Below, piece after piece: positions 13,613 to 63,894 of a stretch of DNA of 64,000 nucleotides. The notes beneath the pieces were generated by a model. The model saw only the letters and a list, made by a program, of their open reading frames with translations, was not told the origin of the DNA and did not search any database. The position numbers and the translations under genes are program-made. The DNA is from Peptacetobacter hiranonis (lineage in GTDB: Bacteria; Bacillota; Clostridia; Peptostreptococcales; Peptostreptococcaceae), in assembly GCF_008151785.1 (NCBI RefSeq), contig NZ_CP036523.1, forward strand, positions 682,001-746,000. The letters run 5' to 3'. Position 1 is the first letter of the stretch; each line of letters opens with the position of its first letter.

Positions 13613-16171
13613 ATGTCAATATTAGACAGAATACTTAGCAAATCAGACGAAGCAGAAATAAGAAAAATTAACACAATAGTAGATAAGATAGATGCTCAAG
13701 AAGAAAGATTCAAAGCAATGAGCGACGATGAACTTAAAAATATGACAAACATATTTAAAGAAAGACTAGCAAACGGAGAAACACTAGACGACATATTAGT
13801 AGAAGCATTTGCTGTAGCAAGAGAAGCTTCTTGGAGAGTACTTGGAATGAGACAGTACAGAGTGCAGCTAATAGGTGGGATAGTACTTCACCAGGGAAAA
13901 ATAGCTGAGATGAAAACTGGGGAAGGTAAAACACTAGTTGCCGTAGCACCAGTTTACCTGAATGGTCTAACTGGAGAAGGGGTACACGTTGTAACTGTCA
14001 ACGATTACCTTGCACAGCGTGACCTTGAAGAAATGGGACAGGTATACAACTTCTTAGGACTAACAACAGGGGTAATAATAGCTGATCAGACTCACGAAGA
14101 AAGAAAAGCTCAGTACGAAGCTGACATAATATATGGAACAAACAACGAATTTGGTTTTGACTACTTAAGAGATAACATGGCTAAAAGCAACGAAGAAAAA
14201 GTACAGAAAAAACTTAAATTTGCTATAGTCGATGAGGTTGACTCTATATTAATAGACGAAGCTAGAACACCACTTATAATAGCTGGTCAGGGAGCAGAGG
14301 GAACAGAAATATACAAAGTTGCCAATGCATTCCTAAAAACAATAAAACCAGAAGACTACGACAAAGACAAAAAAGAAAACACAATAGCTTTCACAGAATC
14401 TGGTATAAAAAAAGCAGAAAAATTCTACGGAATAGAAAACATAACTCACATAGAAAACATGGAAATATTCCACGCTATAAACCAGGCTCTTAGAGCACAC
14501 AAAATGATGGACTTAGACGTAGAATACGTTGTAAGAGATGGAGAAATACTAATAGTCGATGAATTTACAGGAAGGGTAATGCAGGGAAGAAGATTCACAG
14601 ATGGACTTCACGAAGCTGTTGAAGCTAAAGAAGGCGTTGAAATAAAAGGTGAATCAAGAACAATGGCTACTGTAACATTCCAGAACTTCTTCAGACTATA
14701 TGAAAAATTATCAGGAATGACAGGTACTGCTAAAACAGAAGAACAGGAATTTGAATCAATATACCACATGAACGTTGTTCAGATACCTACAAACAAACCA
14801 GTACTAAGAGCAGACTTACACGATAGAATATTTAAAACAGAAAAACAGAAATACGCAGCAGTTGTTGAAGAAATAAAAGAAGCTCATATGACAGGACAGC
14901 CAATACTAGTTGGTACTGTATCTGTTGAAAAATCTGAAGAACTATCAGAACTACTTAAAAAACAGGGAATACAGCACAAAGTGCTTAATGCTAAACAGGA
15001 CAAAGAAGAAGCAGACATCGTATCTGAAGCTGGTAAACTAGGAGCTATAACAATAGCAACTAACATGGCTGGTAGAGGTACAGACATAAAACTTGGTGCC
15101 GGAGATAAAGAAGAAGCTCAGAAAGTAAGAGAAGCAGGTGGACTTTACGTAATCGGTACAGAAAGACACGAATCAAGACGTATAGATAACCAGCTTAGAG
15201 GACGTTCTGGACGTCAGGGAGATCCTGGTAAATCAAGATTCTTCGTCAGTGTAGAAGACGAAATAATAAAACTATACGGTGGTAAGACTATAGAAAAACT
15301 TTCTAAAAAAATAACTCCAGACGAACATGGTGGTATGGAAAGTAAACAGCTTACAAAAACTGTAGAAAAAGCACAGAAAACAATAGAAGGTAAAAACTTC
15401 CAGACAAGAAAACAGGTACTTGAATACGACGACGTTATCAACGAACAGAGAAAAGTTGTATATGCAGAAAGAGATAAAGTACTTGATAATGCAGACATAT
15501 CTGAAGAAATACAGAATATGATAAAAGAAAGAATAATGTTTGCTACAGAAACATACCTAAGAGGTAAAAATAGAGATTTCGTAAGATATGTTGCTCACTT
15601 ATACAACGAATTCGTACCATATAACACACTTATCATACCTGGCTGGGCTGAGCTATCTCCAGAAGCTATAGCTAACCAGACTTATGCAATAGTGGAAAAC
15701 ATCTACAATCTTAAAAAGATGTTAATAGGTGAAGACGCTGTTAAAGCAGAAGAAAGAGAAACACTTCTAACTGTTGTCGACAACTATTGGACATACCACA
15801 TAGATTTAATGGATCAGATGAGACAGGGTATAGGACTTCAGGCTTCTGCACAGAAGGACCCAGTTAAAGAATATACTGTTGAAGCTGGTAGAATGTACGA
15901 CGAAATGAATATGAATATCAGAAGAGATACTTTAAAATATCTATTTGGTTTTGCTAGAGAAGCTCTAGGTCAGAAAGAGATAGATATGGATAATATCCAG
16001 ACTGTTAGTGCTGAGGAATATACTCAGGTGGTTGAGCCTGATGAAGCTCAGGTGGAGGCACTTGCTGAGTATCTAAATTCACTAAGTGATGAAGAATATG
16101 CTAAAGTACTTGAGGAATTAGGTATAGATGCAGAACAAGATGAATCTGGAGAATGGAAAATTAAAGAATAA
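13613..16171 (+). CDS. secA: Preprotein translocase ATPase SecA, without C-terminal zinc motif
   Basis: 852 aa. SecA is the ATPase that pushes preproteins through SecYEG. Motifs are MKTGEGKTLVA (Walker A, about residue 103), VNDYLAQRD, GTNNEFGFDYLRDNM, DEVDSILIDEARTPL (DEAD-type Walker B), the preprotein-crosslinking region, TVSVEKSEELS, TNMAGRGTDIKLG, GTERHESRRIDNQLRGRSGRQGD, and the helical scaffold YWTYHIDLMDQMRQGIGL. The C-terminus ends DESGEWKIKE and lacks the CXCX8CH zinc tail seen in many housekeeping SecAs. C. difficile has an accessory SecA2 beside slpA that exports S-layer proteins. The lack of the zinc tail and the setting among CWB2 genes fit such a role here, but SecA1 cannot be excluded. 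RBS GGGGGAAA. Confidence 0.93.
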   Translation: MSILDRILSKSDEAEIRKINTIVDKIDAQEERFKAMSDDELKNMTNIFKERLANGETLDDILVEAFAVAREASWRVLGMRQYRVQLIGGIVLHQGKIAEMKTGEGKTLVAVAPVYLNGLTGEGVHVVTVNDYLAQRDLEEMGQVYNFLGLTTGVIIADQTHEERKAQYEADIIYGTNNEFGFDYLRDNMAKSNEEKVQKKLKFAIVDEVDSILIDEARTPLIIAGQGAEGTEIYKVANAFLKTIKPEDYDKDKKENTIAFTESGIKKAEKFYGIENITHIENMEIFHAINQALRAHKMMDLDVEYVVRDGEILIVDEFTGRVMQGRRFTDGLHEAVEAKEGVEIKGESRTMATVTFQNFFRLYEKLSGMTGTAKTEEQEFESIYHMNVVQIPTNKPVLRADLHDRIFKTEKQKYAAVVEEIKEAHMTGQPILVGTVSVEKSEELSELLKKQGIQHKVLNAKQDKEEADIVSEAGKLGAITIATNMAGRGTDIKLGAGDKEEAQKVREAGGLYVIGTERHESRRIDNQLRGRSGRQGDPGKSRFFVSVEDEIIKLYGGKTIEKLSKKITPDEHGGMESKQLTKTVEKAQKTIEGKNFQTRKQVLEYDDVINEQRKVVYAERDKVLDNADISEEIQNMIKERIMFATETYLRGKNRDFVRYVAHLYNEFVPYNTLIIPGWAELSPEAIANQTYAIVENIYNLKKMLIGEDAVKAEERETLLTVVDNYWTYHIDLMDQMRQGIGLQASAQKDPVKEYTVEAGRMYDEMNMNIRRDTLKYLFGFAREALGQKEIDMDNIQTVSAEEYTQVVEPDEAQVEALAEYLNSLSDEEYAKVLEELGIDAEQDESGEWKIKE

Positions 16172-19646: not shown

Positions 19647-20870
19647 TTACAATCTATCTTCATACATTATTGAAAGTTCTCCATAAATATATCCCCAGTT
19701 TCTAATAGGCATACTCCATTTTTTGCTTATTTTTTCAACTGATAGATATAGTGATTTTTCTAAGGAAATCTTGTTTGGAAAAACAGTTCTTTTTTTATTT
19801 ATTTTTCTAAGCTGCGAATTTACACTTTCAATGGCATTTGTAGTATAAATTACCTTTCTAGTTTCTGGTGAAAATTTAAATATCGGTATAATTGAATCCC
19901 AGTTACTAAACCAAGATTTCATAGAATTTGGATATTTTTCATTCCATTTTTCTGAAGTACGTTCTAAATTAGCTAGAGCCTGTTCTTCATTAATGGCATG
20001 ATATATTGTTTTTAAATCATTAGCAAATTCCTTTCTATCTTTGTATGATACATATTTTAATGTATTTCTAACTTGATGAACAATACATCTTTGATATTCA
20101 GTATTTGGAAAAGCGGAGCTTATCGCTTCTTTTATTCCTGATAGTCCATCAGCACAAACGATTAAAATATCTCTTACACCTCTATTTTTTAATTCATTTA
20201 GCACAGAAAACCAATACTTAGAGCTTTCAGTATCTCCAATATACAATCCTAGAATTTCTTTGTATCCTTCGGAACTTATACCAAGAATTACATAGACAGC
20301 TTTTTTCTTAACAGAACCATTTTCTTTAACAGAGAAATGTATAGCATCTATATATACAACAGGATACACACTTTCAAGAGGTCTATATTTCCATTCTTCG
20401 ATTTTAGGTATTATTTTATCAGTTACATCTGAAATCATTCCTTCAGATAGTTCAAATCCATAAATATCCTCTATTTGAGAAGTTATATCTCTATTACTCA
20501 TGCCTAAAGCATACATATTTATTATTTTTTGCTCTATTTCAGAAATATCCTTTTGTCTTTTTTTGACAATTTGAGGTTCAAAAGAGGAATCTCTATCTTG
20601 AGGAACATCAATTTCGTATTCTCCCATTCCAGATCTAACTCTTTTTGTTTTATATCCATTTCTTGAATTGGTATTTTCACCACGTTCATATTTTTCATAC
20701 CCAAGATGCTCATTCATTTCAGATTCAAGCATCTCTTGAATAGTATCACCTAAAAGATCTTTAAGTGCATCCTGAATGTCTTGAGCGGTTTTAATTTCAT
20801 ATGTTTTAATTAGCTCCGCTATTATGTTTTTCTTTTCTGGATTTAATGGTTCTCTTTTCTTTCTGCCCAT
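19647..20870 (-). CDS. IS256-family (Mutator-type) transposase
   Basis: 407 aa, the normal length. Visible: the N-terminal region LGDTIQEMLESEMNEHLGYE, the linker NSRNGYKTKRVRSGMGEYEI, the DDE core with VVYIDAIHFSVKENG (first Asp), DILIVCADGLSGIKEAISSA (second Asp), the C/H segment CIVHQVRNTLKYV, and TTNAIESVNSQLRKI (catalytic Glu). These are standard for IS256 transposases. GGAGGCGA precedes the ATG. It is not an invertase and is unlikely to drive the S-layer inversions, though it may have brought local rearrangement. Confidence 0.95.
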   Translation of the reverse strand: MGRKKREPLNPEKKNIIAELIKTYEIKTAQDIQDALKDLLGDTIQEMLESEMNEHLGYEKYERGENTNSRNGYKTKRVRSGMGEYEIDVPQDRDSSFEPQIVKKRQKDISEIEQKIINMYALGMSNRDITSQIEDIYGFELSEGMISDVTDKIIPKIEEWKYRPLESVYPVVYIDAIHFSVKENGSVKKKAVYVILGISSEGYKEILGLYIGDTESSKYWFSVLNELKNRGVRDILIVCADGLSGIKEAISSAFPNTEYQRCIVHQVRNTLKYVSYKDRKEFANDLKTIYHAINEEQALANLERTSEKWNEKYPNSMKSWFSNWDSIIPIFKFSPETRKVIYTTNAIESVNSQLRKINKKRTVFPNKISLEKSLYLSVEKISKKWSMPIRNWGYIYGELSIMYEDRL

Positions 20871-21368: not shown

Positions 21369-21729
21369 CTTGATTCCTCCTTATAAAATATTTACAAAAT
21401 TATAATAACATAATATTATGTATAATTTCGATGAATTACTAATTATATAGTTACTTATATGAGTTTAGTTTGTAATAAATATGTAAATGAAGGATTATAA
21501 AGGCTTTATAGAGCTCATAATAAGTGCGTATTAATGTAAAAGGGTGATAAATTAACTTGCTTTGTAATAAAAATAAAATAATACTGCAAACACAATCTAA
21601 AAATATGAATAGCTACAAACAAGTAAAATAGCCGTTAGGCTAAAACAAATACCAAAACTATATGAACTATGAGTAAATATAGTGAGAAGTTTTAGAAAAT
21701 CGTAAAAAATAGAATAAAAATGGAGTAGA

Positions 21730-21789
21730 GTTACAAAAAAGTTACAGAGAGGTTACAAAAAATAGAATAAAAGTTACAAAATAGTGACA
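21730..21789. promoter_or_regulatory. Phased GTTACA array upstream of the S-layer promoters
   Basis: GTTACA occurs at 21730, 21741, 21752 and 21773, and GTGACA at 21784. The spacings are 11, 11, 21 and 11 bases, that is one or two helical turns. Such phasing suggests a protein binding cooperatively on one DNA face. It lies about 290 bases before the first S-layer promoter. The gap 21369-21729 holds nothing else that I recognise. Confidence 0.45.
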
Positions 21790-21835
21790 AATATTTAAAA
21801 TTCAGATAAAATAATACAACTTTTGCCGAAAAATA

Positions 21836-21884
21836 AACCTAAGGCGTGAGCCTTAGGTTCTTTTCATCGCTGGGCGATGAAAAG
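21836..21884 (+). terminator. Twin hairpins upstream of the S-layer promoters
   Basis: AACCTAAGGC pairs with GCCTTAGGTT (21836-21859) and is followed by CTTTTCATCG/CGATGAAAAG (21860-21884). The first has a TTCTTTT tail and probably insulates the S-layer promoter from upstream transcription. Confidence 0.55.
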
Positions 21885-22073
21885 TTTACCTTCTGTGACT
21901 GAGGGGGAATGAGCAAAATCAACGGAAAAAAAGTACAAAAAAGAAACGGCGGCGCAAAAAAAGAACGGAAAGGAGAAAAAATAAAAAGAAGAAAAAAACG
22001 AAAAAAATTTTTACTTTTGGGCTGCGCTTACGAATTGATCAGGGGGAGAGGGGAAAAAATTTGGGAAAAAGGG

Positions 22074-22102
22074 TTTACATAAAGAAATTAATCGAGTATA
22101 AT
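22074..22102 (+). promoter_or_regulatory. S-layer promoter P1
   Basis: TTTACA (22074-22079), a 17-bp spacer and TATAAT (22097-22102). It lies wholly in unique DNA outside the leader repeat and reads into it. Confidence 0.75.
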
Positions 22103-22189
22103 ACTAAATACTACAAAGGACATGCGAGAAAAAATAAAAAGTCAATACATAAAAAGTTAAAAAAATGTAACTTTTGTTTTTTAAAACTA

Positions 22190-22218
22190 TTGCATGAGCT
22201 TGGAAAATGTAGTACAAT
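22190..22218 (+). promoter_or_regulatory. S-layer promoter P2, split by the leader-repeat boundary
   Basis: TTGCAT (22190-22195), a 17-bp spacer and TACAAT (22213-22218). The -35 box is in unique DNA, while the -10 box is the first motif of the repeat (which starts at 22212). All seven inverted copies keep TACAAT but have GGCGTC at the -35 position. Confidence 0.8.
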
Positions 22219-22428
22219 AAAAATGTGGAAAAATAATTGCGAAAAAAGAGCAAGAGAATAGAGAAAAAAAGAGAAGAAAAGAATAAAAAAGGAAAACGAA
22301 GGAAAAGGAAAGAATAAGAAAGAGTAAGTGAAAGAAAAGCCATAAGATAACAGAAGAAAAGAGAGAAAAGAAAGCAAATAAAAGCAAGAGCTCTCGTTAA
22401 GAAATCACTGCCCTTAAAAGAAATCTTA
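22212..22428 (+). repeat. S-layer leader repeat, expressed (+) copy
   Basis: 217 bp starting at the -10 box. It is a nearly pure purine transcript (GAAAAAAGAGCAAGAG, GGAAAACGAAGG and so on) with few pyrimidines, forming most of the long 5' untranslated leader of the S-layer mRNA. It is identical over its full length to the reverse complement of 31892-32108, and its first about 139-157 bp are shared with six more inverted copies. Long, unstructured purine-rich leaders would favour mRNA stability. The open frames within it on either strand are low-complexity and not genes. Confidence 0.85.
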
Positions 22429-22514
22429 TATATTTTAGACCATAGTTTTCTAATTTTTTATTTGAAGAAATGAAATAAGTAAAGAGTGTAAAAAAAGAAA
22501 ACGGAGGTAATATA

Positions 22515-24704
22515 ATGAATAAAAAAAGATTGTCAGTAGTAATGGCAGGAGCAATGCTAGCAACTTCAGTAGCTCCAGTATTAGCAGCTGAAACAACAGG
22601 AACAGAAATAGCTTTCGAAAATAAAGCTACATTAAAAGCAGATATATTAGCTAAAATGGCAACTAAAAAAATATCTAACTATCCTATATTTGCTCAGGGA
22701 CATGCAACTACAGGAAATGACTTTGTAGGAAAAAATATAGCTGCAGAAATAAACGGTAATGCAAACACTTTCTCATCAGCATACGGTGTAAAAGTAACTG
22801 GAAAAGATGGAAAAGTTAAAGTTAAAACAACATACAGAGCATCAGAAGTTGAAACTGCAATAGATGCATTAAAAGCTGGAGAAAAAGTTGAAGTATTCGA
22901 AAGAGAAACAGCAGAATTCAAAGGTCAGTTATTACCAGTTAAAGAGGATAAATTACCATCAGTTAACTCATTAACTTCTAAATATGCAGATGCTGTAGAT
23001 TTAAAAGATGCACAGACATTTGCAGACGGTTCTAAAAAAGATATATTAGCAACTGATAAACTAAATGGTAAAGATAATAAATTAGTAACTGATGCAACTT
23101 ATTTAAATAAAGTTGTAACAGTTAAAACAAATAAAGTTGAAGATGTAGAAACAGATAAAAAACATGAATTCACTTTAAAAGATGGTTCTGTAAAAATAGA
23201 TGGTAGACTTCCATTAGATGAAAAAGGTAACTTATTAGATGTTACAAATCTTGAAGATGCAAATAAATTCAAAGAATTTGCACCTTTAACTTCTTGGATA
23301 GCTGCTGATGAGGATCCAGAAAAAAGAGTAGAAACTTTAGTAGATACATATACATTAGGTGAAGAACCAGCTGATGAAACAAAAGAAACATTAAAAATTG
23401 CAGATTTATTTGATGGAATAGCTTTAACAGCAAGAGGAACTGAAATAGTTGCAGACTTAAATAACGCAAGAAAAGCTGCTAAAGCAGAAGGTTTAACAGA
23501 TGCAGAAGCTTTAGTTAGAATAGATACTGTAAAAGAAAATACAACTTCAGGGGTATCAACATTTACAATATCATACTTCAAAAAATCAACTGATAAAAAA
23601 GCTGAAAAAGTTATAACAGTTGTATCTACTGATAAAGAAGAATTAAACGGTTTATATAAACTAATAAATACAGGAAAATTTAATGTTGGTGTAGTAGCTG
23701 GACAGAATAGATACGAAACTTCAGTAAATGTTGCAAAACAGATAGGATTAACAGAATTAAATAAAACTTCAGCTAATAACATAGTATTAGTAAATGGAGA
23801 ATCATTAGTAGATGGATTAGCTGCAGCTCCTTTAGCAGCTGAATTAGGAAGCTACCAGAATGGTGTTGTAGGAACAAAATTAGCTGCTCCATTATTATTA
23901 ACAGAAGCTGGAAAATTACCATCAGCAACAAAAGAATACTTAACAGGATTAGTTGCAAACTTTACTTCAATAGAGAAAAAAGCAGTTAAAGTACATTTAG
24001 TAGGTGGAACAACTGTACTAAATTCTGATTTAGCAAAAGAATTAAAAGAAATGGGATTCACAGTAGTAAGACATGGTGGAGATAACAGAGAAGAAACTTC
24101 AGTAGCAGTAGCAGAAGCTATGTCTGCTAAAACAAAAGCATTTGTAGTAGGAGCAAATGGTGAAGCAGATGCAATGTCAATATCAGCAGTAGCAGCTAGA
24201 ACTAATGCTATAACACCAATAATAGTAGCAAAAGCTGGTGGAATATCAACAGATGCATTAAACTACTTAACAGAAGTAGGAGCAAATGATGTAACAATAG
24301 TTGGTGGAGAAAAAGCATTATCTGCTGAAGAAGAAAAAGAAATAAACGGAGCATTAAATGGTGCAGTAGCAATGAGAATAGCTGGTGCTAATAGATTTGA
24401 AACAAATAATGCTATAATAAAAGAATTCTACAAAAATGCTACTATAGGTAAAGCTGTAGTATCTGTAAAAGATGGTGTTGCTAATAAAAATGAATTAGTA
24501 GATGCTTTATCAGCAGCTAACTTTGCAGCATCAATAGATGCACCAATATTATTAGCATCAACAAATGTAACAGATGCACAGAAATCTACATTATTAAAAG
24601 CTACTTCTAATCCAACTAAAGTAGTTCAGGTTGGTATGGGTGCAGAAAGAACTGTATTAGAAACAATAGCAAACTTATTAGGTGTAACTAATAAAGTTAA
24701 ATAA
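22515..24704 (+). CDS. S-layer protein (CWB2), first gene of the expressed cassette
   Basis: 729 aa. The signal peptide (residues 1-25, LATSVAPVLAAE) is almost identical in all ten S-layer genes here. A variable N-terminal region (26 to about 390) contains a conserved block DLFDGIALTARGTEIVADL (about 296). Three CWB2 modules follow at about 392 (VAGQNRYETSVNVAK), 512 (RHGGDNREETSVAVAE) and 619 (RIAGANRFETNNAI). In C. difficile the CWB2 part anchors and the other part is surface-exposed. Ribosome site ACGGAGG, 8 bases before the ATG. This is the only S-layer leader with complete promoters, so it is the inferred expressed gene, probably together with the next one. Confidence 0.92.
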   Translation: MNKKRLSVVMAGAMLATSVAPVLAAETTGTEIAFENKATLKADILAKMATKKISNYPIFAQGHATTGNDFVGKNIAAEINGNANTFSSAYGVKVTGKDGKVKVKTTYRASEVETAIDALKAGEKVEVFERETAEFKGQLLPVKEDKLPSVNSLTSKYADAVDLKDAQTFADGSKKDILATDKLNGKDNKLVTDATYLNKVVTVKTNKVEDVETDKKHEFTLKDGSVKIDGRLPLDEKGNLLDVTNLEDANKFKEFAPLTSWIAADEDPEKRVETLVDTYTLGEEPADETKETLKIADLFDGIALTARGTEIVADLNNARKAAKAEGLTDAEALVRIDTVKENTTSGVSTFTISYFKKSTDKKAEKVITVVSTDKEELNGLYKLINTGKFNVGVVAGQNRYETSVNVAKQIGLTELNKTSANNIVLVNGESLVDGLAAAPLAAELGSYQNGVVGTKLAAPLLLTEAGKLPSATKEYLTGLVANFTSIEKKAVKVHLVGGTTVLNSDLAKELKEMGFTVVRHGGDNREETSVAVAEAMSAKTKAFVVGANGEADAMSISAVAARTNAITPIIVAKAGGISTDALNYLTEVGANDVTIVGGEKALSAEEEKEINGALNGAVAMRIAGANRFETNNAIIKEFYKNATIGKAVVSVKDGVANKNELVDALSAANFAASIDAPILLASTNVTDAQKSTLLKATSNPTKVVQVGMGAERTVLETIANLLGVTNKVK

Positions 24705-24747
24705 TAAGTATAAACTATATAGATTTAATCAATTTATGTGGAAATAA

Positions 24748-24775
24748 CCTAGTGAGATATAATTATCTCACTAGG
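24748..24775 (+). promoter_or_regulatory. Perfect hairpin between the two expressed S-layer genes
   Basis: CCTAGTGAGATA pairs with TATCTCACTAGG around a TAAT loop. It is followed by an A-run, not a T-run, so it is not a standard terminator for the + strand. It probably sets relative mRNA levels or stability of the two cistrons. No promoter is visible between the genes. Confidence 0.55.
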
Positions 24776-24809
24776 TAAAAAAACTACAAAAAACGGAGGA
24801 AATAAAAGA

Positions 24810-26984
24810 ATGAATAAGAAAAACTTATCAGTTGTATTAGCTGGAGCAATGTTAGCAACTAGCGTAGCACCAGTATTAGCAGCTACAGAAAAAGAATATT
24901 CACTTGATAATAGAGAACTATTAAATAAAGAAATAGTAAGCACAATGAAAACAAAAATGCTTACAAGCAACCCAACTTTAAAAGATGCAACATTTGTAAC
25001 AGAAAATGTAAAAAAATTATTAGTTAACGATGCATCAGCTTACGGAATAAGATTATTAGATGAAAAAGGAAATAAAGTTGAAGGTGCAGAAACTTATATA
25101 GCTACTGAAGCTGCTGTTAAATCTGTTTTAGATCAGGCTAAAGAAGGATATACAGTAGAATTAGTAGAAAGAAAAACAAATGAATTCTATGGAGAACTTA
25201 TACCTGGGGAAAAAATAGAAAAAGGTACAGAAGTAATAAACTACGATAATAAAAAAGATTTCGAAGATATAACAAGTAATAGTGAAATATATAAACAGAT
25301 AGTTGTTGGAACATTAGGTAATACGGAAGGTACTAATAACGTATTATTAGCTTCTACAGGTACATTATCTACAGAAGGAACTGGAGATGAAAAAGTTCTT
25401 TTAGTAAAAACAAATAAACCTGAAGATTTATCAAAACCAGGAGATGGAGATGCAAAAGTTGTAATAAAATTAGCTGGTGGAAGCCAGAAAATAGATGGTA
25501 GATTACCATTAACAGCTGATGGAAAACTTTTAGACTACACTAAAAAATCTGATATAGCTAAATTTGATCATTTCGATACATTAACAACTTGGACAGCATC
25601 TAAAGAAATAAAAGATGAACCAACAGTTACTGCAACATACAAAATGACAGCTGAAGCTAAAGAAGAAAATACTATTAAAGCTGAAGAATTATACGATGGT
25701 GTAGTATTAACAGCAAAAGGAACAGAATTAGCAGCTGAATTAGCAAATGCAGCTAAAGAAACTGGTGAAGAAGTGGCAACTGCGACAAAAGCATTAGTTA
25801 GAATATCAAATAAAGATGGAATAGGTGCTGATAAAGCTGTATCTAAATTCACAGTTACATACTACAAAAATGCTACTACAGCATACAAAACTATAACAAT
25901 ATACTCTTCTAACTACAAAGAAGTAGATGCTTTATATGGAATGTTAACTAATACTGGTTCTTATAAAGTAGGTATAGTAGGTGGAGAAAATAGATACGAA
26001 ACAGCTGTAAATGTAGCTAAAGCACAGGGAATAGTAGCTTTTGAAGATGCTAATGCAGGAGATATCGTATTAGTAAACGGAGATTCATTAGTGGATGGAT
26101 TATCAGCAGCTCCTTTAGCCGCAAGAAAATCAGCTCCAGTATTATTAACAAAAGCAGATTCTCTACCAGAGTCTACTAAAGGATATATATCAAGCTTACT
26201 TTCTAAAAAAACAACAATAGCAAATAAAAAGAAAATAACTGTAACACTAGTAGGTGGAAAATCAGTATTAACTAATTCATTAATAAAAGAATTAGAAGAA
26301 ATGGGAGTAACAGTTAAAAGATTAGGTGGAGATAATAGAGAAGCAACTTCATTAGCAGTAGCAAAAGAAATAAAAGCTGCTGGAAATGAAAATGCAGCAT
26401 TCGTAGTAGGTGGAAACGGTGAAGCTGATGCTATGGCAATATCAGCAGTAGCAGCTAAAACTAATACTCCAATAATAGTATCAAGTGTACATGGTTTAAG
26501 TGAAGATGCTCTTGAATACTTAAAAGAAAATTCAGCAAAAGGCGATGTAACAGTAGTTGGTGGAGAATCAGTAGTATCTAAATCTGAAGAAGAAGCTATA
26601 AACGAATCATTAACTTTAAACAAAGCATCAAGAATAGCTGGAGCAAACAGATTCGAAACAAATGCAGCTATAATAAAAGAATTCTACAAAGAATTCTCTG
26701 GAGATAATGGTGCAAAAGCAGTTATAGTTGTTAAAGATGGTGTTGCTAAAAAATCTGAATTAGTAGATGCATTAGCAGCAGCTAATTTCGCAGCAGCTAA
26801 TAATGCTCCAATAGTATTAGCTACTAATTCATTAAATACAGCTCAGAAAAATGCATTATTAAATATGGATATAGTTGGTAGTGGAACTACTAAAGTTATG
26901 GCTAAAGCAGTTCAGGTTGGTAACGGTGTTGAAAGATCTGTTCTAGAAGCAGTAGCTGGATTATTTGGATTATCAAACAAATAA
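24810..26984 (+). CDS. S-layer protein (CWB2), second gene of the expressed cassette
   Basis: 724 aa. Signal peptide MNKKNLSVVLAGAMLATSV, then a variable region with ELYDGVVLTAKGTELAAEL (about 292). CWB2 modules stand at about 387 (VGGENRYETAVNVAK), 497 (RLGGDNREATSLAVAKE) and 606 (RIAGANRFETNAAI). Ribosome site ACGGAGG, 8 bases upstream. It lies 105 bases behind the first S-layer gene with only a hairpin between, so it should be expressed from the same promoters by read-through. It has no leader repeat of its own, which makes this cassette bicistronic like the inverted one at 27435-31746. A terminator follows at 27006. Confidence 0.9.
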   Translation: MNKKNLSVVLAGAMLATSVAPVLAATEKEYSLDNRELLNKEIVSTMKTKMLTSNPTLKDATFVTENVKKLLVNDASAYGIRLLDEKGNKVEGAETYIATEAAVKSVLDQAKEGYTVELVERKTNEFYGELIPGEKIEKGTEVINYDNKKDFEDITSNSEIYKQIVVGTLGNTEGTNNVLLASTGTLSTEGTGDEKVLLVKTNKPEDLSKPGDGDAKVVIKLAGGSQKIDGRLPLTADGKLLDYTKKSDIAKFDHFDTLTTWTASKEIKDEPTVTATYKMTAEAKEENTIKAEELYDGVVLTAKGTELAAELANAAKETGEEVATATKALVRISNKDGIGADKAVSKFTVTYYKNATTAYKTITIYSSNYKEVDALYGMLTNTGSYKVGIVGGENRYETAVNVAKAQGIVAFEDANAGDIVLVNGDSLVDGLSAAPLAARKSAPVLLTKADSLPESTKGYISSLLSKKTTIANKKKITVTLVGGKSVLTNSLIKELEEMGVTVKRLGGDNREATSLAVAKEIKAAGNENAAFVVGGNGEADAMAISAVAAKTNTPIIVSSVHGLSEDALEYLKENSAKGDVTVVGGESVVSKSEEEAINESLTLNKASRIAGANRFETNAAIIKEFYKEFSGDNGAKAVIVVKDGVAKKSELVDALAAANFAAANNAPIVLATNSLNTAQKNALLNMDIVGSGTTKVMAKAVQVGNGVERSVLEAVAGLFGLSNK

Positions 26985-27005
26985 TTTGTAAAACAAATTA
27001 ATATA

Positions 27006-27036
27006 TTAAGAACCTATCAAATGATAGGTTCTTTTT
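27006..27036 (+). terminator. Terminator of the expressed S-layer cassette
   Basis: AAGAACCTATCA pairs with TGATAGGTTCTT, followed by TTTCTTTTT. Confidence 0.8.
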
Positions 27037-27084
27037 CTTTTTAGGCGTAGCCTTTGAGATAATTATAACTGAATATTTAAAATC

Positions 27085-27148
27085 AAAAATAGACTTGCTT
27101 TTGTAAGTCTATTTTTGTCTATAATTTCAACAAAAAAACATACGTTCT
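27085..27148. repeat. Cassette-end module (inverted copy): terminator plus AACATACGTTCT
   Basis: AAAAATAGACTT (27085-27096) pairs with AAGTCTATTTTT (27105-27116), and AACATACGTTCT follows at 27137-27148. It is the reverse complement of the end module found between defence and S-layer genes in the silent units, as expected if the whole expressed cassette is an inverted unit. GGCGTAGCC just before (27043-27051) is also the inverse of GGCTACGCC at the other ends. Confidence 0.7.
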
Positions 27149-27274
27149 GTCAGGGCGATAAAATAATTTCAAAAAGATTATGATTTAGAATAAAAATTTT
27201 ATAGCCTAATATAAAATCTACAGTAAAAGATTTCTTTAATAGCTAATTATCAATATGTAAACGTAAACATCACA

Positions 27275-27337
27275 AGAACATTTGTTCTTTTTAGGTTATA
27301 TAAACAAAAATAGACTTACAAAAGCAAGTCTATTTTT
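27275..27337. repeat. Cassette-end module of the first - strand cassette
   Basis: AGAACATTTGTT (27275-27286) is followed by the terminator AAAAATAGACTT/AAGTCTATTTTT (27306-27337). The roughly 125 bases between this and the inverted module at 27148 separate the + and - cassettes and hold nothing else recognisable. Confidence 0.6.
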
Positions 27338-27383
27338 GTTTTTTATATAATTTCAACATACTAATTCTATCTATAAAAGAAAA

Positions 27384-27411
27384 AGAGTCTATCAAAAGAT
27401 AGACCCTTTAA
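27384..27411 (-). terminator. Terminator of the first - strand S-layer cassette
   Basis: On the - strand AAGGGTCTATC pairs with GATAGACTCTT and is followed by TTTTC. Confidence 0.75.
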
Positions 27412-27434
27412 TTATTTATTAAAACAAATTTATA

Positions 27435-29531
27435 TTAATTTTCAAGATTTTTTAAGCCTAAAAGTTTAGATACAGATTTTATTACATCTGAATTTAATCC
27501 ATCTCCAACCTGTATTATATGAGTAGCACCTTTAGTTGAAACTGAGTTAGCTTTTACTAAAGCACTTTCCTGAGCTGTTGATAATTTATCTTTAGCTAAT
27601 ACAATTGGTCCACCTAAGTTAGCAGCTGTTAAAGCATCTACTAATTCATATTTACCATTTGTCATACCATCTTTAGCTAAGATAACTGGTCTAGAAACAG
27701 GATTAACTTTACCTACTCCAGCAGTAGCATAATATTTTTCTAATATTTTAGCATTAGTTTCAGTTCTATTAGCACCAGCTATTCTTAAAGCTTCAGCTTT
27801 AGTAGAATCTGTTTTGGCTTCATTTATTTTAGCTTCATCTTCTTTAGAAAATACAGATGTTCCACCAATTATAACTGCATCATTATCTCCCTGTTTTCCT
27901 AAGAATTTTAAAGCATCTTTAGATATTCCACCAGCTTTTGCTACTATTATAGGTTTTTTATCTCTAGCTGCAACAGCAGATATTGCCATAGCATCAGCTT
28001 CACCTTCTGCTCCTACAACAAACACTTCTTTACCTGTAGTAGCACCCTTTGTAACAACTTCAGCTACTTCTAAAGAAGTTTCTTCTCTATTATCTCCACC
28101 TAATCTATTTACTTTGAATCCCATAGTAGTTAATTCATCTTCAAGATTAGATGTTAAAACAGATTCTCCACCTACTAATGTAACTACTATATCTTTTCTT
28201 TCTTTAGAGCTTAAAGCTTCTGTTAATTTATTTAAATAATCTTTAGTTTCTTTTGGAAGTGTATCTGCTTTTGATAGTAATATTGGAGCAGCTACATTTT
28301 TAGCCGTAGCTCCATTGATTGTTGCTGCAAGAGGAGCAGCTGAAAGTCCATCTACTAAAGCATCTCCATTAACAAGAACTATATTTTTATTATCACCATC
28401 TATTTTTGCTCCCTGCTGTTTTGCAACATTAACAGCTGTAGCATATCTATTAGATCCACCAACTACACCAACTGCATATTCTTTAGTATTTAGTATATTA
28501 TATAATGCTTTTATCTCTTTTTTATTAGTTGATGTTACTTTTATAGTTTTTATAGCTTTATCATCTACTCCGTTATATCCTTTTGCGTAGTATTCTACTG
28601 TAAAATGATATACTCCATTTGTATCATCTGATATATCAGATGCATTAGCTTTAGCAAATTTAACTAAATCTTTACCATTATCATTTTTTAAATCATTTAA
28701 TATTTCAGTACCTTTTGATGTTAATATAGTACCATCATATAAATCAGATGCTTTTAAGTTTTCAACTGTTGGATCTTCGTCAGCAACAACATTTACAGTT
28801 TCTATTACTGAAACTGGATTAGCTTTAACCTGTGAAGCTACCCATTTCTGAGTTGTCATAAATCCATCACACTGCTGTATGCTTTCTGTTTTTGCAGGTG
28901 CTAATAAATTATCTCCTGACATAGGCATTTTTGTATTTAATTTAGCATCTCCAACTTTTATAGTTACAGTTTTATTTTTTTCATCGGCATCTAGTGCATG
29001 TAAAGTTATTGTAGCTGACTGTTTGTCAGAAGCAACTTCTATATTTTTTATGAATGTAGCATTATTTAAAGATGTTTTTAATCCTGCTTCATCTTTAAAA
29101 TCAGCTTCAGTATATTTATCTTTTTCATCTGTTCCTAAAGATGTTATTTCAGAACCTGGTATTAATAATCCATGGAAAGAAGTAGTTTCGTACTCAACTA
29201 TTTCTATTTTAGAACCTGCTCCCGCAGCTTTTATTGAAGAAACTATATTAGCTGGATCGTATATTGGGTCAGCTCCATTTATTTTAACACCTATTGAAGA
29301 TGGCATTTTTGTAGCTACATTTGCAACATCAGTTGAAACAAATGGTGCTGCAAATACTATTGGATATCCAACTTTATCTATTTTATTTTCTTCCATTTTA
29401 GTTTTTATAGCTTCAGCATATAATGTTAAATCACTTACGCTAAGAGTTTTTTCTTCCGCAGCCATAACTGGAGCTACTGATGTAGCTAACATTGCACCAG
29501 CCATTACTACTGATAAATTTCTTTTATTCAT
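27435..29531 (-). CDS. S-layer protein (CWB2), second gene of silent cassette A
   Basis: 698 aa from ATG 29531, which follows ACGGAGGAAATGCAATT; a longer frame to 29564 runs through the ribosome site. Signal peptide NLSVVMAGAMLATSVAPVM. The conserved DLYDGTILTSKGTEILNDL precedes CWB2 modules at about 353 (VGGSNRYATAVNVAKQQ), 469 (RLGGDNREETSLEVAE) and 581 (RIAGANRTETNAKI). YATA in place of YETA in module 1 is a small deviation. It has no leader repeat and lies 122 bases behind the gene 29653-31746 on the same strand, so it depends on that gene's leader. Inferred to be silent in this configuration. Confidence 0.9.
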   Translation of the reverse strand: MNKRNLSVVMAGAMLATSVAPVMAAEEKTLSVSDLTLYAEAIKTKMEENKIDKVGYPIVFAAPFVSTDVANVATKMPSSIGVKINGADPIYDPANIVSSIKAAGAGSKIEIVEYETTSFHGLLIPGSEITSLGTDEKDKYTEADFKDEAGLKTSLNNATFIKNIEVASDKQSATITLHALDADEKNKTVTIKVGDAKLNTKMPMSGDNLLAPAKTESIQQCDGFMTTQKWVASQVKANPVSVIETVNVVADEDPTVENLKASDLYDGTILTSKGTEILNDLKNDNGKDLVKFAKANASDISDDTNGVYHFTVEYYAKGYNGVDDKAIKTIKVTSTNKKEIKALYNILNTKEYAVGVVGGSNRYATAVNVAKQQGAKIDGDNKNIVLVNGDALVDGLSAAPLAATINGATAKNVAAPILLSKADTLPKETKDYLNKLTEALSSKERKDIVVTLVGGESVLTSNLEDELTTMGFKVNRLGGDNREETSLEVAEVVTKGATTGKEVFVVGAEGEADAMAISAVAARDKKPIIVAKAGGISKDALKFLGKQGDNDAVIIGGTSVFSKEDEAKINEAKTDSTKAEALRIAGANRTETNAKILEKYYATAGVGKVNPVSRPVILAKDGMTNGKYELVDALTAANLGGPIVLAKDKLSTAQESALVKANSVSTKGATHIIQVGDGLNSDVIKSVSKLLGLKNLEN

Positions 29532-29593
29532 AATTGCATTTCCTCCGTTTTTTAATCTATTCAATACAATCTCTTTTTCTCTATTCTCTTTTT

Positions 29594-29628
29594 ATTTATG
29601 ATACGGGATAAAATCCCGCATCATAAAT
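29594..29628 (-). promoter_or_regulatory. Hairpin between the two genes of silent cassette A
   Basis: TTTATGATACGGGAT pairs with ATCCCGCATCATAAA. In the sense direction it is followed by A-rich DNA, so it parallels the non-terminator hairpin at 24748-24775 of the expressed cassette. Confidence 0.5.
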
Positions 29629-29652
29629 TTTTTTCAAAATATTTATATAAAT

Positions 29653-31746
29653 TTAGTTAGTTATATTTAATGCTTTAGATAATGATTTTATTATTGAGTC
29701 ATTTAATCCTAAACCAACTTGTAGTAAATTAGTATCTGTAGCATCTACAGTAGATTTTAAGTTTAATAGTATAGTTAACTGTTCGTCAGTTAAGCTAGAA
29801 TCGGCTAATACTATAGGTCCACCTAAATTAGCTGCAGATAAAGCATCTATTAGGTCAGTTTTATTATTTACTCCATTTTTAACTAATGTAAGTTTTTTAC
29901 CATCTAATGTCTTAGCAAATTCTTTAAGTATTTTAGCATTAGTTTCAGTTCTATTAGCACCTGCTATTCTTCTTACTCCACTAGTTTTATCCTCTTTAGC
30001 TTCAACTATTTTATCTTCTTCAGCTTTAGTTATAGCTTTTTCTCCACCTATTATTGTAGCATTACCATCCTGATTACCTAAGAAGTCTAAAGCGTCTGCA
30101 GTTAAACCATGTACACTTGATACTATTATTGGAGTTTCTTCTTCAGCTGCAACAGCTGATATAGACATTGCATCAGCTTCTCCATTAGCACCAACTACAT
30201 AAGCTCCTTTAGCTGCAAATCCAGATATAGCTTTTGCAACTTTTATAGAAGTTTCTTCTCTATCATCGCCACCATATCTTGCAACTTTGAATCCCATACC
30301 TTTTAATTCTTTAACTAAAGAATCTGATAATACGGCATCTCCACCTACTAAATTTATTGTTATTTTAGATAAGTTACTTGCTTTTACATTTTCAGTTAAG
30401 TATTCTAAGTATTCTTTAGTTTCTTTTGGTAAAGAATCTGTTTTTGTTAATAATAAAGGCGCATTATTTTTACTAGCTGCAAGAGGTGCTGCTGCTAATC
30501 CGTCAACTAATGATTCTCCGTTTGTAAGAACTACATCATATTCAGTACCGTTTGTAAACTGAGTAACACCTGATTCTTTTGCAACATTAACAGCTGTTTC
30601 ATATCTATTCTGTCCAGCTACTATACCAACTTTATAGCTTTCAGCTTTTAACATATTGAATAGTGCTTTTATATTTGTTGTTTCTGATGATTTTACTACA
30701 ACTTTTTTAACAAGTGTTCCTTTTTTAGATTTATACTGAACATCAAAACTAGTTATACCATTTGCAAGAGTTGTATTTGCAGAAAGAACAACTTTTTTAT
30801 TAGTTTCATCATTTTTTAAGTCATTTAATAACTCTGTTCCTTTTTCAGTAAGAAGAGTTCCATCATATAAGTCAGATACATTGTAGTTAACAACTTCTTC
30901 AACTGGAGCAGATGCTACTATATCTATAGTTTCAACTTTTGTAGCGTCAGCATCTGTTGTATATCCACCAGCCCAAGTACTATCTTTTAAGAATTTAGCG
31001 CATTTCTGTAAATCATCATCATTACTAGCACCTTTATCTAATAGATTCCCTTCTGCATCTACTGGTAAGTTAAGGTCATATTTAACATCTCCAGTTTTTA
31101 TATCAAGTTTTATATTAGTATTTGTATTATTTACATCTGTTAAAGCTTTTAAAACTATAGAACCTTCATTATCTTTAGTACAAGTAATTTCTTTTATAAA
31201 TCTATTTCCACCTTTTAATGTAGAATCATTAAATCCATTAGCTGTTAATTCTGCTTTTGTATATACATTTTTAGTATTTTCAGCAACTGCTTCTGGAGCT
31301 TTTTTAGCAGGTATAACCTGTCCTAAGAAAGTAGTATTTTCTTTTTCTGATATTACTATTTTATCCCCAGCTTTTAAAACACCTGCTTTAATTTTAGTAT
31401 CGATATTATCTGCTGTTAAAACTGTTTCATTTGTTCCACTTACTAACTTTATTTCGTATACAGAATTTAAATATGCATTTGAAGTAGAATCAGTTTTAAT
31501 TTTTGCTAATTTAGTTGCTATGTCTGTTCCTAAATATTTCTGAGCACTAGCATCATTTTTAACTAATACTGAATTAGATGTAAATTCTTTTTCTTCAAAT
31601 TTAGCTTTTATATATTTGTTTAATAAAGCTTCCTGTCCAACAGAATATTCTTTTGTTGTTGCAGTTGTTTCTGCAGCTAATACTGGAGCTACTGAAGTAG
31701 CTAGCATTGCTCCTGCCATTACTACTGACAATCTTTTCTTGTTCAT
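29653..31746 (-). CDS. S-layer protein (CWB2), first gene of silent cassette A
   Basis: 697 aa. Signal peptide MNKKRLSVVMAGAMLATSV, identical to that of the expressed gene. DLYDGTLLTEKGTELLNDL lies before CWB2 modules at about 371 (VAGQNRYETAVNVAKE), 483 (RYGGDDREETSIKVAK) and 592 (RIAGANRTETNAKI). The exposed N-terminal region differs strongly from the expressed protein. Its leader contains the full 217-bp repeat in perfect identity with the expressed copy but without a -35 box. It is the best candidate for the next gene to be switched on, by an inversion of about 9.9 kb. Confidence 0.92.
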   Translation of the reverse strand: MNKKRLSVVMAGAMLATSVAPVLAAETTATTKEYSVGQEALLNKYIKAKFEEKEFTSNSVLVKNDASAQKYLGTDIATKLAKIKTDSTSNAYLNSVYEIKLVSGTNETVLTADNIDTKIKAGVLKAGDKIVISEKENTTFLGQVIPAKKAPEAVAENTKNVYTKAELTANGFNDSTLKGGNRFIKEITCTKDNEGSIVLKALTDVNNTNTNIKLDIKTGDVKYDLNLPVDAEGNLLDKGASNDDDLQKCAKFLKDSTWAGGYTTDADATKVETIDIVASAPVEEVVNYNVSDLYDGTLLTEKGTELLNDLKNDETNKKVVLSANTTLANGITSFDVQYKSKKGTLVKKVVVKSSETTNIKALFNMLKAESYKVGIVAGQNRYETAVNVAKESGVTQFTNGTEYDVVLTNGESLVDGLAAAPLAASKNNAPLLLTKTDSLPKETKEYLEYLTENVKASNLSKITINLVGGDAVLSDSLVKELKGMGFKVARYGGDDREETSIKVAKAISGFAAKGAYVVGANGEADAMSISAVAAEEETPIIVSSVHGLTADALDFLGNQDGNATIIGGEKAITKAEEDKIVEAKEDKTSGVRRIAGANRTETNAKILKEFAKTLDGKKLTLVKNGVNNKTDLIDALSAANLGGPIVLADSSLTDEQLTILLNLKSTVDATDTNLLQVGLGLNDSIIKSLSKALNITN

Positions 31747-31891
31747 TATATTACCTCCGTTTTTCTTTATTTACACTCTCTTTTTATATTTCTTAATTAG
31801 AGAAAAATAGTATTTCTTTAAATAAAAAATTAGAAAAACTTCAGTCATATCTTAAAAATAAGAATAGTTTTTTTGAAATCTACTTTTTCGG

Positions 31892-32144
31892 TAAGATTTC
31901 TTTTAAGGGCAGTGATTTCTTAACGAGAGCTCTTGCTTTTATTTGCTTTCTTTTCTCTCTTTTCTTCTGTTATCTTATGGCTTTTCTTTCACTTACTCTT
32001 TCTTATTCTTTCCTTTTCCTTCGTTTTCCTTTTTTATTCTTTTCTTCTCTTTTTTTCTCTATTCTCTTGCTCTTTTTTCGCAATTATTTTTCCACATTTT
32101 TATTGTACGGAATTTTTCCTTAGCGACGCCCCCCTAAGCCCCCC
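31892..32144 (-). repeat. Leader repeat copy A (217 bp, inverted) plus GC-rich boundary
   Basis: 31892-32108 is the exact reverse complement of 22212-22428. It ends at the -10 box (ATTGTA on this strand). Beyond it lies the boundary block CGGAATTTTTCC then TTAGCGACGCCCCCCTAAGC and CCCCC (to 32144), with GGCGTC where a -35 should be. The A+T stretch 32145-32277 leads to the defence genes. Confidence 0.85.
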
Positions 32145-32277
32145 AGAAAATTATTTTTAAATCGAAAAATAAAAATAAACTATATTTTATGCTTATAAAA
32201 ATCAAAAAATGATATTTTAAATATCTTTTTATTGATTATAAATATAAAAATTGATATATTATAATTAAAAGGGGGCT

Positions 32278-33717
32278 ATGTCAATGATAATAAGAATAGA
32301 GAAAATGGAAATAAATGGGATAAAAAATATAAACCATGGTGAGTTTGAATTTGAAGAATATAAACAAATCTTAAAAGGTAATTTAGATACAGATAAATGC
32401 TCTATGTTGGGTATTTATGGACAGAATGGATCTGGAAAGACAAGTATACTTGAGTCAGTTAAAATTTTAAAGAACATACTACTTGGTCAAAATATAATGG
32501 ATTATATAAAAAAGTATATAACTGAGGATACTGCAACATTAAATACAACGTTCTTTTTAAGTGATGGAGAAAATCACTATTTAGTTGACTACTTAGTTGA
32601 AATGACAGCCGAAAAAAATAACAATCAAGATACTGAACAAAAGTATAATATATTAAATATAGTAAATGAAGATTCAAAGAATAATAATTGCATATATAAA
32701 ATTTCAAAAGAAGAAATGAAAATAAAGGAATTCATTTCAGATAAAGAAGGTTGGGGAAGAAAAGACCTTATTTTTAGATATAATAATGGAAAACTATTCA
32801 AAAAAGTTGCTGATTTGATTGATAAAAAAGATCTTATAGAGCTTGAATATAATAAAAGAGCTATAAATCCAGACAAATCATTACTTTTCAATGACGAGTT
32901 TTTAAGAGTTTTAAGAGAAAATAACATTGAAGAATTAGCAGTATTGTACAATATAGCTGTAACATTGCGTCAGTTTTCTTTTGAAAAGTTATTAATTATA
33001 GAGAGTAGTGTAATAGGAAGTGCAGGTCTAGATATTGGTATGTTACCATTAAATATCTACATTTCTAATGAAAATTTTAAATCATCTGGTGTATTTAATA
33101 TAAATATGTCTGGAAAGAGTATCGTTCCAGAAGAATTATTTAATGTTATAGATATTTCAATAAGAAGAATTTCATTAGTGCTACAAGCTATAGTTCCTTC
33201 TATAAAGTTGGAAATGACTAATATTAAAGAAGAACTTTCTCAAAATGGAGCTAATATGAGAAGTTTTGATATAGTTAGTGTTAGGGATGGAAAAATGATT
33301 CCTCTAGTATATGAATCTGAAGGAATCAAAAGAATAATTTCTATAATGAGTGCAATAGTTGCGGTATATAATGATCCATCAATAGCTTTATTTGTAGATG
33401 AGTTCGATTCTGGAATATTTGAATATCTTTTAGGGGAATTAGTTAAGATAATTTATGAATCAGGAAAAGGACAGTTTGTATTTACATCACACAACCTAAG
33501 AGTATTAGAAATGCTACCATATAAAGCTATTTTATTAACAACAGTAAATCCAGACAATAGATTTATACAGTTTAAAAATATCAAAACTACAAATAATTTA
33601 AGAGAACAATATTTTGCAAACATTCTTTTAAATGGTCAGAGTGAGGTATTATATGAATCTACAAATAACAATAGAATAAAAGTAGCATTAAGAAAGGCAG
33701 GTAAACTTAATGACTAA
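32278..33717 (+). CDS. AAA family ATPase, first gene of a two-gene defence-type module
   Basis: 479 aa. SMC/OLD-like ATPase: N-terminal IRIEKMEINGIKNI, Walker A GIYGQNGSGKTSILES (about residues 43-58), ABC-type C-terminal half with Walker B IALFVDEFDSGIFEYLL (about 370), then GQFVFTSHNLRVLEML. The middle 250 residues are insert-specific. Such ATPases work as sensors or regulators with a nuclease partner (OLD, PARIS AriA, AbiL type). It overlaps the next gene by 8 bases, so translation is coupled. ATG 32278 has GGGGG only 3 bases before; ATG 32284 in the same frame has better spacing. It occupies the defence slot between leader repeat A and S-layer gene 34683-36881. Confidence 0.75.
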   Translation: MSMIIRIEKMEINGIKNINHGEFEFEEYKQILKGNLDTDKCSMLGIYGQNGSGKTSILESVKILKNILLGQNIMDYIKKYITEDTATLNTTFFLSDGENHYLVDYLVEMTAEKNNNQDTEQKYNILNIVNEDSKNNNCIYKISKEEMKIKEFISDKEGWGRKDLIFRYNNGKLFKKVADLIDKKDLIELEYNKRAINPDKSLLFNDEFLRVLRENNIEELAVLYNIAVTLRQFSFEKLLIIESSVIGSAGLDIGMLPLNIYISNENFKSSGVFNINMSGKSIVPEELFNVIDISIRRISLVLQAIVPSIKLEMTNIKEELSQNGANMRSFDIVSVRDGKMIPLVYESEGIKRIISIMSAIVAVYNDPSIALFVDEFDSGIFEYLLGELVKIIYESGKGQFVFTSHNLRVLEMLPYKAILLTTVNPDNRFIQFKNIKTTNNLREQYFANILLNGQSEVLYESTNNNRIKVALRKAGKLND

Positions 33718-34450
33718 GAAAAAGGATGTATTTTTATTAATTGTTGAGGGACCTAGTGATGAAACGATATTGAGTACTATCTTAGATGATATATTTGATT
33801 TGAATAAAATTTTCTATCAAGTTGATTATGGAGATATTACTACTGGAAATACAGATGCCATTAAAGGAAAGAGTATAGATGAAAGAGTTACAAATGCTAT
33901 AAAATTATATATTAAGAAAAATAGATATGGTATTAAAAAGGAAGATATAAAAAAGGTAATATTTTTAACTGATATGGATGGATGTTATTTGTCTGATAAA
34001 TATATATTTGAATCAGATGAAAAATTAAAGTACACGGAAGAAGGCATTTATACAAATAATGTAAATGGTATACTAGAAAGAAATAAGACTAAGAGTAAAA
34101 ATTTGAATAAAATATCAACTGCATCAAGTGTATATAGGAATATTCCTATTGAGGTGTATTATTTTTCTTGTAATATAGACCATGCATTTTTCGGTATGTT
34201 AAATTTAAGTGATTCTGAGAAAGAATTGTATTCAAATGAGTTTGCTGAAGATATGTTAGATAATGTGGATCGGCAGATGAATATTTTGGATAGCCTTTCA
34301 AAACATGGATATGAGTATAAAGCTTCTTGGAATAGTATCAAGGAAGGATTAAATTCAGTAAATAGGTCATCAAATCTTTTAGTATTTTTGATAAATAATA
34401 AGGAGTATTTGAGAGAGGATATAGCTAAAAGGATAGACAGTTGTAGATGA
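33710..34450 (+). CDS. TOPRIM-like (RloB/DUF4435-type) partner of the AAA ATPase
   Basis: 246 aa. The N-terminal LLIVEGPSDETILSTILDDI has the TOPRIM-type glutamate, and VIFLTDMDGCYLSDKY (about residues 83-98) has the D-x-D pair. This places it near RloB/AriB/OLD-type TOPRIM nucleases, though no exact family is recognised. ATPase plus TOPRIM pairs (PARIS, AbiL, OLD/Gabija) are anti-phage abortive systems; that function is inferred. It overlaps the upstream gene (ATG inside the preceding stop region) and is followed by the cassette-end module. Confidence 0.65.
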   Translation: MTKKKDVFLLIVEGPSDETILSTILDDIFDLNKIFYQVDYGDITTGNTDAIKGKSIDERVTNAIKLYIKKNRYGIKKEDIKKVIFLTDMDGCYLSDKYIFESDEKLKYTEEGIYTNNVNGILERNKTKSKNLNKISTASSVYRNIPIEVYYFSCNIDHAFFGMLNLSDSEKELYSNEFAEDMLDNVDRQMNILDSLSKHGYEYKASWNSIKEGLNSVNRSSNLLVFLINNKEYLREDIAKRIDSCR

Positions 34451-37013: not shown

Positions 37014-37200
37014 TCTCTTTTCTTCTGTTATCTTATGGCTTTTCTTTCACTTACTCTTTCTTATTCTTTCCTTTTCCTTCGTTTTCCTTTTTTATTCTTT
37101 TCTTCTCTTTTTTTCTCTATTCTCTTGCTCTTTTTTCGCAATTATTTTTCCACATTTTTATTGTACGGAATTTTTCCTTAGCGACGCCCCCCATAAGCCC
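37014..37200 (-). repeat. Leader repeat copy B (153-bp core, inverted) plus boundary
   Basis: Core 37014-37166 matches the first 153 bp of the expressed leader. The boundary (37167-37200) reads CGGAATTTTTCC, TTAGCGACGCCCCCC, ATAAGCCC: a variant with one extra A. The following 37201-37346 is A+T rich and should hold the promoter of the ATPase gene, but no strong consensus was seen. Confidence 0.85.
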
Positions 37201-38600: not shown

Positions 38601-38637
38601 ATACAAAAGGTGATATAATTAAGTAAGTATATAATAC

Positions 38638-38699
38638 AGAACATACGTTTTTTGAAAATTTGTTGGCAAAAATAGACTTACAAAAGCAAGTCTATTTTT
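38638..38699. repeat. Cassette-end module: AGAACATACGTT plus bidirectional terminator
   Basis: AGAACATACGTT (38638-38649), then AAAAATAGACTT (38668-38679) and AAGTCTATTTTT (38688-38699). In this unit the type III toxin-antitoxin locus lies on the S-layer side of the module. The GGCTACGCCT just after (38731-38740) is also a shared cassette-end feature. Confidence 0.7.
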
Positions 38700-38813
38700 G
38701 TTTTTTTGTTTTTTGATGATGAAGCAGGGAAGGCTACGCCTGAAATATAATGCTTACTTGTACTTTTTATTCAATCAATAATATTAAAATATAAAATTTA
38801 TTATTCAATCTAA

Positions 38814-38842
38814 TTGATAAATTAACCTTTGAGTGTTATAAT
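38814..38842 (+). promoter_or_regulatory. Promoter of type III antitoxin RNA 1
   Basis: TTGATA (38814-38819), a 17-bp spacer and TATAAT (38837-38842), directly before the antitoxin repeats. Confidence 0.8.
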
Positions 38843-38848
38843 ATATAT

Positions 38849-39027: not shown

Positions 39028-39042
39028 ACGTGGAGAAAAACT

Positions 39043-43661: not shown

Positions 43662-43666
43662 ATATT

Positions 43667-63813: not shown

Positions 63814-63894
<81 letters not shown>

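Follow-up and report, generated by a model that had tools for sequence, protein, structure and literature searches.

The window, by which we mean the whole stretch of 64,000 nucleotides analysed here (positions 682001-746000 of the closed 2.52-Mb genome of Peptacetobacter hiranonis), contains ten genes encoding SlpA-like S-layer proteins, two on the forward strand and eight on the reverse strand. The reading frames of all ten are intact (678-751 codons), and eight of them, one forward and seven reverse, are preceded by a long leader. Upstream of the S-layer genes lie a secA paralogue (13613-16171), which is found near genes for smaller CWB2 proteins, and a gene encoding a Mutator/IS256-type transposase (19650-20870), placed between these CWB2 genes near secA and the expression site described below. 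Genome-wide, the CWB2 domain (PF04122) was matched 106 times in 2.5 Mb, which represents a very large repertoire of cell wall proteins.

The S-layer proteins have a signal peptide and three CWB2 repeats (three separate stretches matching PF04122), the architecture of SlpA-like proteins. They also match NF033435 over their full length with 186-226 bits and, as these scores are below the equivalog cut-off of 650, we refer to them as SlpA-like rather than as SlpA proper. The proteins encoded behind the eight leaders share only 22-37% identity in the exposed N-terminal half, compared with about 55% in the wall-binding CWB2 part, a contrast that would be expected for a varied surface. In nearly all pairwise comparisons of the genes dN was lower than dS.

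The expression site carries gene A (22515-24704, forward strand), encoding a protein of 729 aa with three CWB2 repeats that matches PF04122 and NF033435, followed after 105 nt by the leaderless SlpA-like gene B (24810-26984, forward), so that both form a two-gene cassette. A mirror image is found on the reverse strand, where the leaderless gene C (27435-29564) is placed behind the gene of the nearest silent cassette, D (29653-31746). A+B (22515-26984) and D+C (31746-27435) are therefore symmetrical two-gene cassettes that face each other, with a terminator cluster between them. Further along the reverse strand are the S-layer genes of cassettes E (34683-36881), F (39691-41946), G (44549-46645), H (50965-53151), I (55630-57666) and J (60991-63198). 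The seven genes of cassettes D to J are all intact, all inverted relative to gene A and all predicted to lack a promoter; the forward copy is predicted to be expressed and the other copies to be silent.

Six gaps between the silent cassettes (32278-34450, 37347-39531, 42411-44365, 47122-48906, 53728-55470 and 58065-59924) are occupied by divergent, forward-strand genes resembling anti-phage genes. These encode AbiLi/AriA-like AAA ATPases, a RiboL-PSP-HEPN protein, Schlafen AlbA_2 proteins and a PDC-S49 protein, and the array has the appearance of a defence island interspersed with S-layer genes. Downstream of cassette J there is a perfect (ACAG)13.8 tract (63834-63888) close to where a possible reading frame begins, which makes it a candidate for phase variation by slipped-strand mispairing.

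The expression site

Two promoters were recognized upstream of gene A. The initial annotation had mentioned a second promoter, P1, as a back-up, and this is indeed present (TTTACA-17-TATAAT, 22074-22102, forward), with 11 of 12 consensus bases and conserved in a Peptacetobacter MAG upstream of its S-layer gene. It is stronger than P2 and is located about 115 bp upstream of it. The -35 box of P2 is TTGCAT (22190-22195, forward) and its -10 box is TACAAT (22213-22218, forward), separated by 17 bp. TTGCAT has only three of the six bases of the -35 consensus, and a generic promoter scan did not return P2. Given this weakness, conservation is the better argument for P2. The genomes used for comparison, one per species, were that of Peptacetobacter hominis and the MAG. 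In the latter, downstream of secA, the sequence TTGCATGAGCGTAGAAAATGTAGTACAATAAAAATGTGGAA has both P2 boxes identical, and in the homologous place P. hominis has TTGCAA-17-TATTAT, so that a TTGCAT or TTGCAA box with 17-bp spacing occurs in the three species. This conservation supports the assignment of P2 as a putative promoter.

Just 5' of the P2 -35 box there is an inverted repeat, AAAAGTTA-N8-TAACTTTT (22152-22175, forward), which is nearly invariant in the three Peptacetobacter species and, judging from its form and position, may be a binding site for a regulator. A search of positions 21400-32400 against Rfam returned no known RNA. Just upstream of P1 lies a four-run G-rich motif (22042-22073), quadruplex-like with one loop of 9 and the only one in the window; two adjacent G-runs are also seen in the left arm of each silent copy. 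The motif recalls the G4 found upstream of Neisseria pilE, a likeness that is possibly a coincidence.

The repeat block and its left edge

All eight leader copies were aligned at base level, in register at TACAAT, which starts at 22213 in the forward copy and, in the silent copies, at the higher coordinate of each reverse-strand block (32107, 37165, 42224, 46941, 53447, 57949 and 63558). From TACAAT onwards the forward copy is 100% identical to the silent copies over unbroken stretches of 138, 152, 152, 152, 156, 156 and 216 nt. The expression-site block can thus be placed at 22213-22428, a purine-rich (80%) leader whose first 138 nt (22213-22350) are identical in 8/8 copies and whose 216 nt are identical to those of the nearest silent copy, in cassette D (31892-32107). 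The shortest identity, 138 nt, is with cassette F (42087-42224), and the five others reach 152-156 nt: E (37014-37165), G (46786-46941), H (53292-53447), I (57798-57949) and J (63407-63558). The G that precedes TACAAT is common to seven of the eight copies and is replaced by A in cassette H. The block was absent from the genome-contig and phage collections searched, and a protein search of viral contigs likewise gave nothing.

The seven silent copies share a left arm of their own, about 38 nt upstream of the -10 box (GGGGGGCTTAGGGGGGCGTCGCTATGGAAAAATTCC), which is G-rich. It occupies 32108-32144 in cassette D, where no -35 box is present, and extends to about 37199, 42261, 46977, 53484, 57985 and 63596 in cassettes E to J, respectively. 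At spacers of 15-19 no silent copy has a -35-like hexamer, the matches to TTGACA being at most 2/6. Left of TACAAT, the similarity of the expressed arm to the silent arms is within the range of shuffled sequence (p 0.29-0.84), while the expressed arm matches that of the related MAG at p = 2e-4. A degenerate homology upstream of the -10 box (GCT.TGGAAAA) was considered and rejected, as anchored alignments were no better than shuffles. Hence the initial annotation was right in stating that the shared sequence starts at the -10 box with the -35 box fixed outside it, and the upstream homology between expressed and silent copies that would have contradicted it is not seen beyond shuffles.

The edge separates the expression site from the silent family, and it is not an edge of every copy. 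In the MAG, homology to the expression site crosses the position of the edge with no interruption, which suggests that the expression site has the ancestral arrangement and that the edge belongs to the silent family. Since one left arm is common to the seven silent copies, the edge represents one event and not seven coincidences. The statement that its position is too exact for a chance limit of homology is therefore weaker than was claimed: any position downstream of the -35 box would keep the silent copies inactive, and selection requires only this. An independent replicate of the edge was sought in P. hominis and in the MAG, where no leader-sharing copies were found; a paralogue on MAG contig C53 has only the stretch around the start codon in common. 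Nor was a comparable cassette array found in the assembled parts of these two genomes, in both of which the contig ends inside an S-layer gene.

Exchange of S-layer genes

Concerted evolution is evident in the block. None of its columns varies (0/138), whereas the left arms of the silent copies have 8/30 variable columns (Fisher p = 4e-7), or 4/22 when the G-runs of these arms are left out (p = 3e-4). As the homologous leader of the MAG is about 20% diverged, with indels, this identity is unlikely to result from purifying selection on the leader alone. Moreover, the homogenisation ends exactly where homology to the expression site ends, which suggests exchange between the silent copies and the expression site and not among the silent copies. 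Over about 300 nt, from TACAAT in the direction of the ribosome-binding site, copies E and I show complete or almost complete identity, and yet they have different left arms and coding regions.

We consider it likely that the S-layer (SlpA-type) of P. hiranonis switches by homologous recombination at this one expression site, with the seven silent intact genes as the reservoir. The fixed site, formed by P1, the operator-like dyad and the P2 -35 box, would drive whichever S-layer gene follows the recombination block. Recombination of the expression-site block with an inverted silent block would invert about 10-41 kb, gene conversion probably occurring as well, and would put another S-layer gene behind the promoter; in every recombinant the promoter at the expression site would remain complete. 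As the seven silent copies are all directed towards the expressed one, the 9.9-41 kb between them would be inverted, not deleted. We infer that switching occurs, that homology drives it and that it has a role in escape from phages or immunity.

What such an event would do to P2 follows from the position of the edge. Because the block begins between the -35 and -10 boxes, the silent copies keep an orphan -10 box and stay off. Because all eight copies have the same -10 box, a crossover at any point of the 138-216 bp block would not separate -35 from -10; it would change only the downstream gene, the promoter being neither built nor broken. The interpretation in the initial annotation, an on/off rule by promoter assembly, thus holds in one part: there is a single fixed site, the silent copies have no -35 box, and the expectation that expression depends on location at the only -35-bearing site is supported. 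The assembly itself is not supported, as the -10 box is inside the identical block and a crossover there would not move it, and disassembly would require a crossover exactly at the left edge, where there is no dyad and for which the locus has no recombinase gene. P1, which lies completely outside the repeat and would drive whichever gene is brought to this site, is together with the P2 -35 box part of the fixed expression site, and its presence makes the outcome of a gene exchange still less dependent on P2.

The orientation of the silent copies was examined with a Markov model of free inversion, under which no more than 7 of 128 orientation patterns are accessible; that with all copies inverted is among them, with a probability of 1/7 (14%). 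We consequently dropped orientation as a proof against reciprocal inversion: being a permitted state, it fits inversion and is also compatible with gene conversion. A purely non-reciprocal conversion of the Neisseria pilE kind, in which silent donors are copied in and their orientation stays constant, would account for the single orientation of the silent copies and for the leader shared by E and I in front of different genes. Related terminator blocks at the 3' ends of the cassettes could supply the downstream homology, and the four-run G-rich motif lies close to the expression site. We nevertheless regard conversion alone as unlikely, given that identity between the coding sequences, over more than 1 kb, is only 40-60% and leaves little homology in which tracts could end, and that the uniform orientation is also permitted under inversion.

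It is quite unlikely, in our opinion, that the inversion is site-specific, with a RecV-like tyrosine or serine recombinase acting in trans and cutting at or near GTACAAT; the left arms would then stay with their loci and P2 would formally be re-assembled in each event. The sharp left edge common to the copies and the conserved silent-type left arm would suit such a mechanism, and two short tyrosine recombinases (182 and 193 aa) are encoded elsewhere in the genome, just as recV of Clostridioides difficile is not near cwpV (PMC2784873). However, no dyad with half-sites beyond those of shuffled sequences was found at the edge or in the block, the locus has no PF00589 or PF00239 recombinase gene, the repeats of cwpV, with 21 bp, are far shorter than the 138-216 nt of perfect identity, and an exchange of the site-specific kind does not make flanking sequences alike. 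The locus accordingly has neither the half-sites nor the nearby recombinase by which Hin-, RecV- or Xer-type systems are recognized.

There may also be no switching at all, the genes being a static family of paralogues through which the leader has recently spread and the edge between -35 and -10 being accidental. The fact that no switched strain has been seen (one genome per species), the absence of the array from the assembled parts of two related genomes and the single event behind the shared edge agree with this, but we find it very unlikely, for the block is perfectly homogenised between two diverged flanks and the seven promoter-less copies have remained intact over about 700 codons, with dN below dS nearly always. 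A recent burst of duplication could be the source of the identical blocks, although the left arms and the genes are diverged. In a more speculative direction, to which we give little credence, the locus might hold a recombination system directed to the edge at the -10 box, where the G-rich arm would mark donors and exchange would start at TACAAT, and the array would move S-layer types in step with the linked anti-phage genes as a combined island of receptor variation and defence.

Related systems and significance

Switching by homologous recombination at one expression site would resemble several known systems. In Lactobacillus acidophilus a silent gene has no promoter, two promoters are found at the expression site and inversion exchanges slpA and slpB (Boot 1996, cited in PMC6015585, PMC4902306 and PMC7858073). 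Promoter-less silent S-layer genes and two promoters at the expression site are found here also, but L. acidophilus has one silent gene on a 6-kb segment whereas the present locus has seven over about 41 kb; in addition, the -10 box is part of the shared block here, and the cassettes are separated by anti-phage-like genes. The sap locus of Campylobacter fetus has several silent genes and a single promoter, and transcription is confined to the gene that adjoins this promoter (Dworkin and Blaser 1996; PMC3887049); its inversion is RecA-independent (Ray et al. 2000, cited in PMC5634654). Both loci have several silent S-layer genes and one site to which rearrangement brings, or here would bring, a new gene; in C. 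fetus, however, the promoter is on the invertible segment, whereas P1, the -35 box and everything upstream are fixed here. The S-layer proteins of L. acidophilus and C. fetus belong to families different from the SlpA-like family of P. hiranonis. Features of the slp and sap systems that are present in this locus are one promoter-bearing copy with intact promoter-less paralogues sharing a 5' block, and inverted orientation of the expressed relative to the silent copies (7/7).

The SlpA of C. difficile, which is described as a phage receptor (PMC10100898), is a related type of protein and its cassettes similarly combine a variable exposed part with a conserved wall-binding part. The cassette types of C. 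difficile vary between strains, whereas about eight variants are here in one genome; in the parts of the C. difficile literature examined, a silent SlpA repertoire within one genome is not described. The cwpV gene of C. difficile is switched on and off by RecV through inversion of 195 bp between 21-bp repeats, acting on transcription termination (PMC2784873). It resembles the arrangement proposed here in that the DNA inversion concerns a gene for a cell wall protein and does not include the promoter, but it involves no exchange of cassettes. The literature searched contained no report on S-layer switching in P. hiranonis. New features are a repertoire of this size in the family, a block edge that falls within a promoter, and the interleaved anti-phage-like genes.

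The locus suggests a simple design rule, by which homology that ends just downstream of a -35 box would leave the donors untranscribed while recombinants keep an intact promoter. If switching is confirmed, P. hiranonis would be a gut commensal of the C. difficile family with about eight SlpA-like types within one genome, a repertoire of the type of protein that serves C. difficile phages as receptor, placed beside anti-phage-like genes. It would then offer an accessible system in which to relate S-layer type to recognition by phages and by the immune system.
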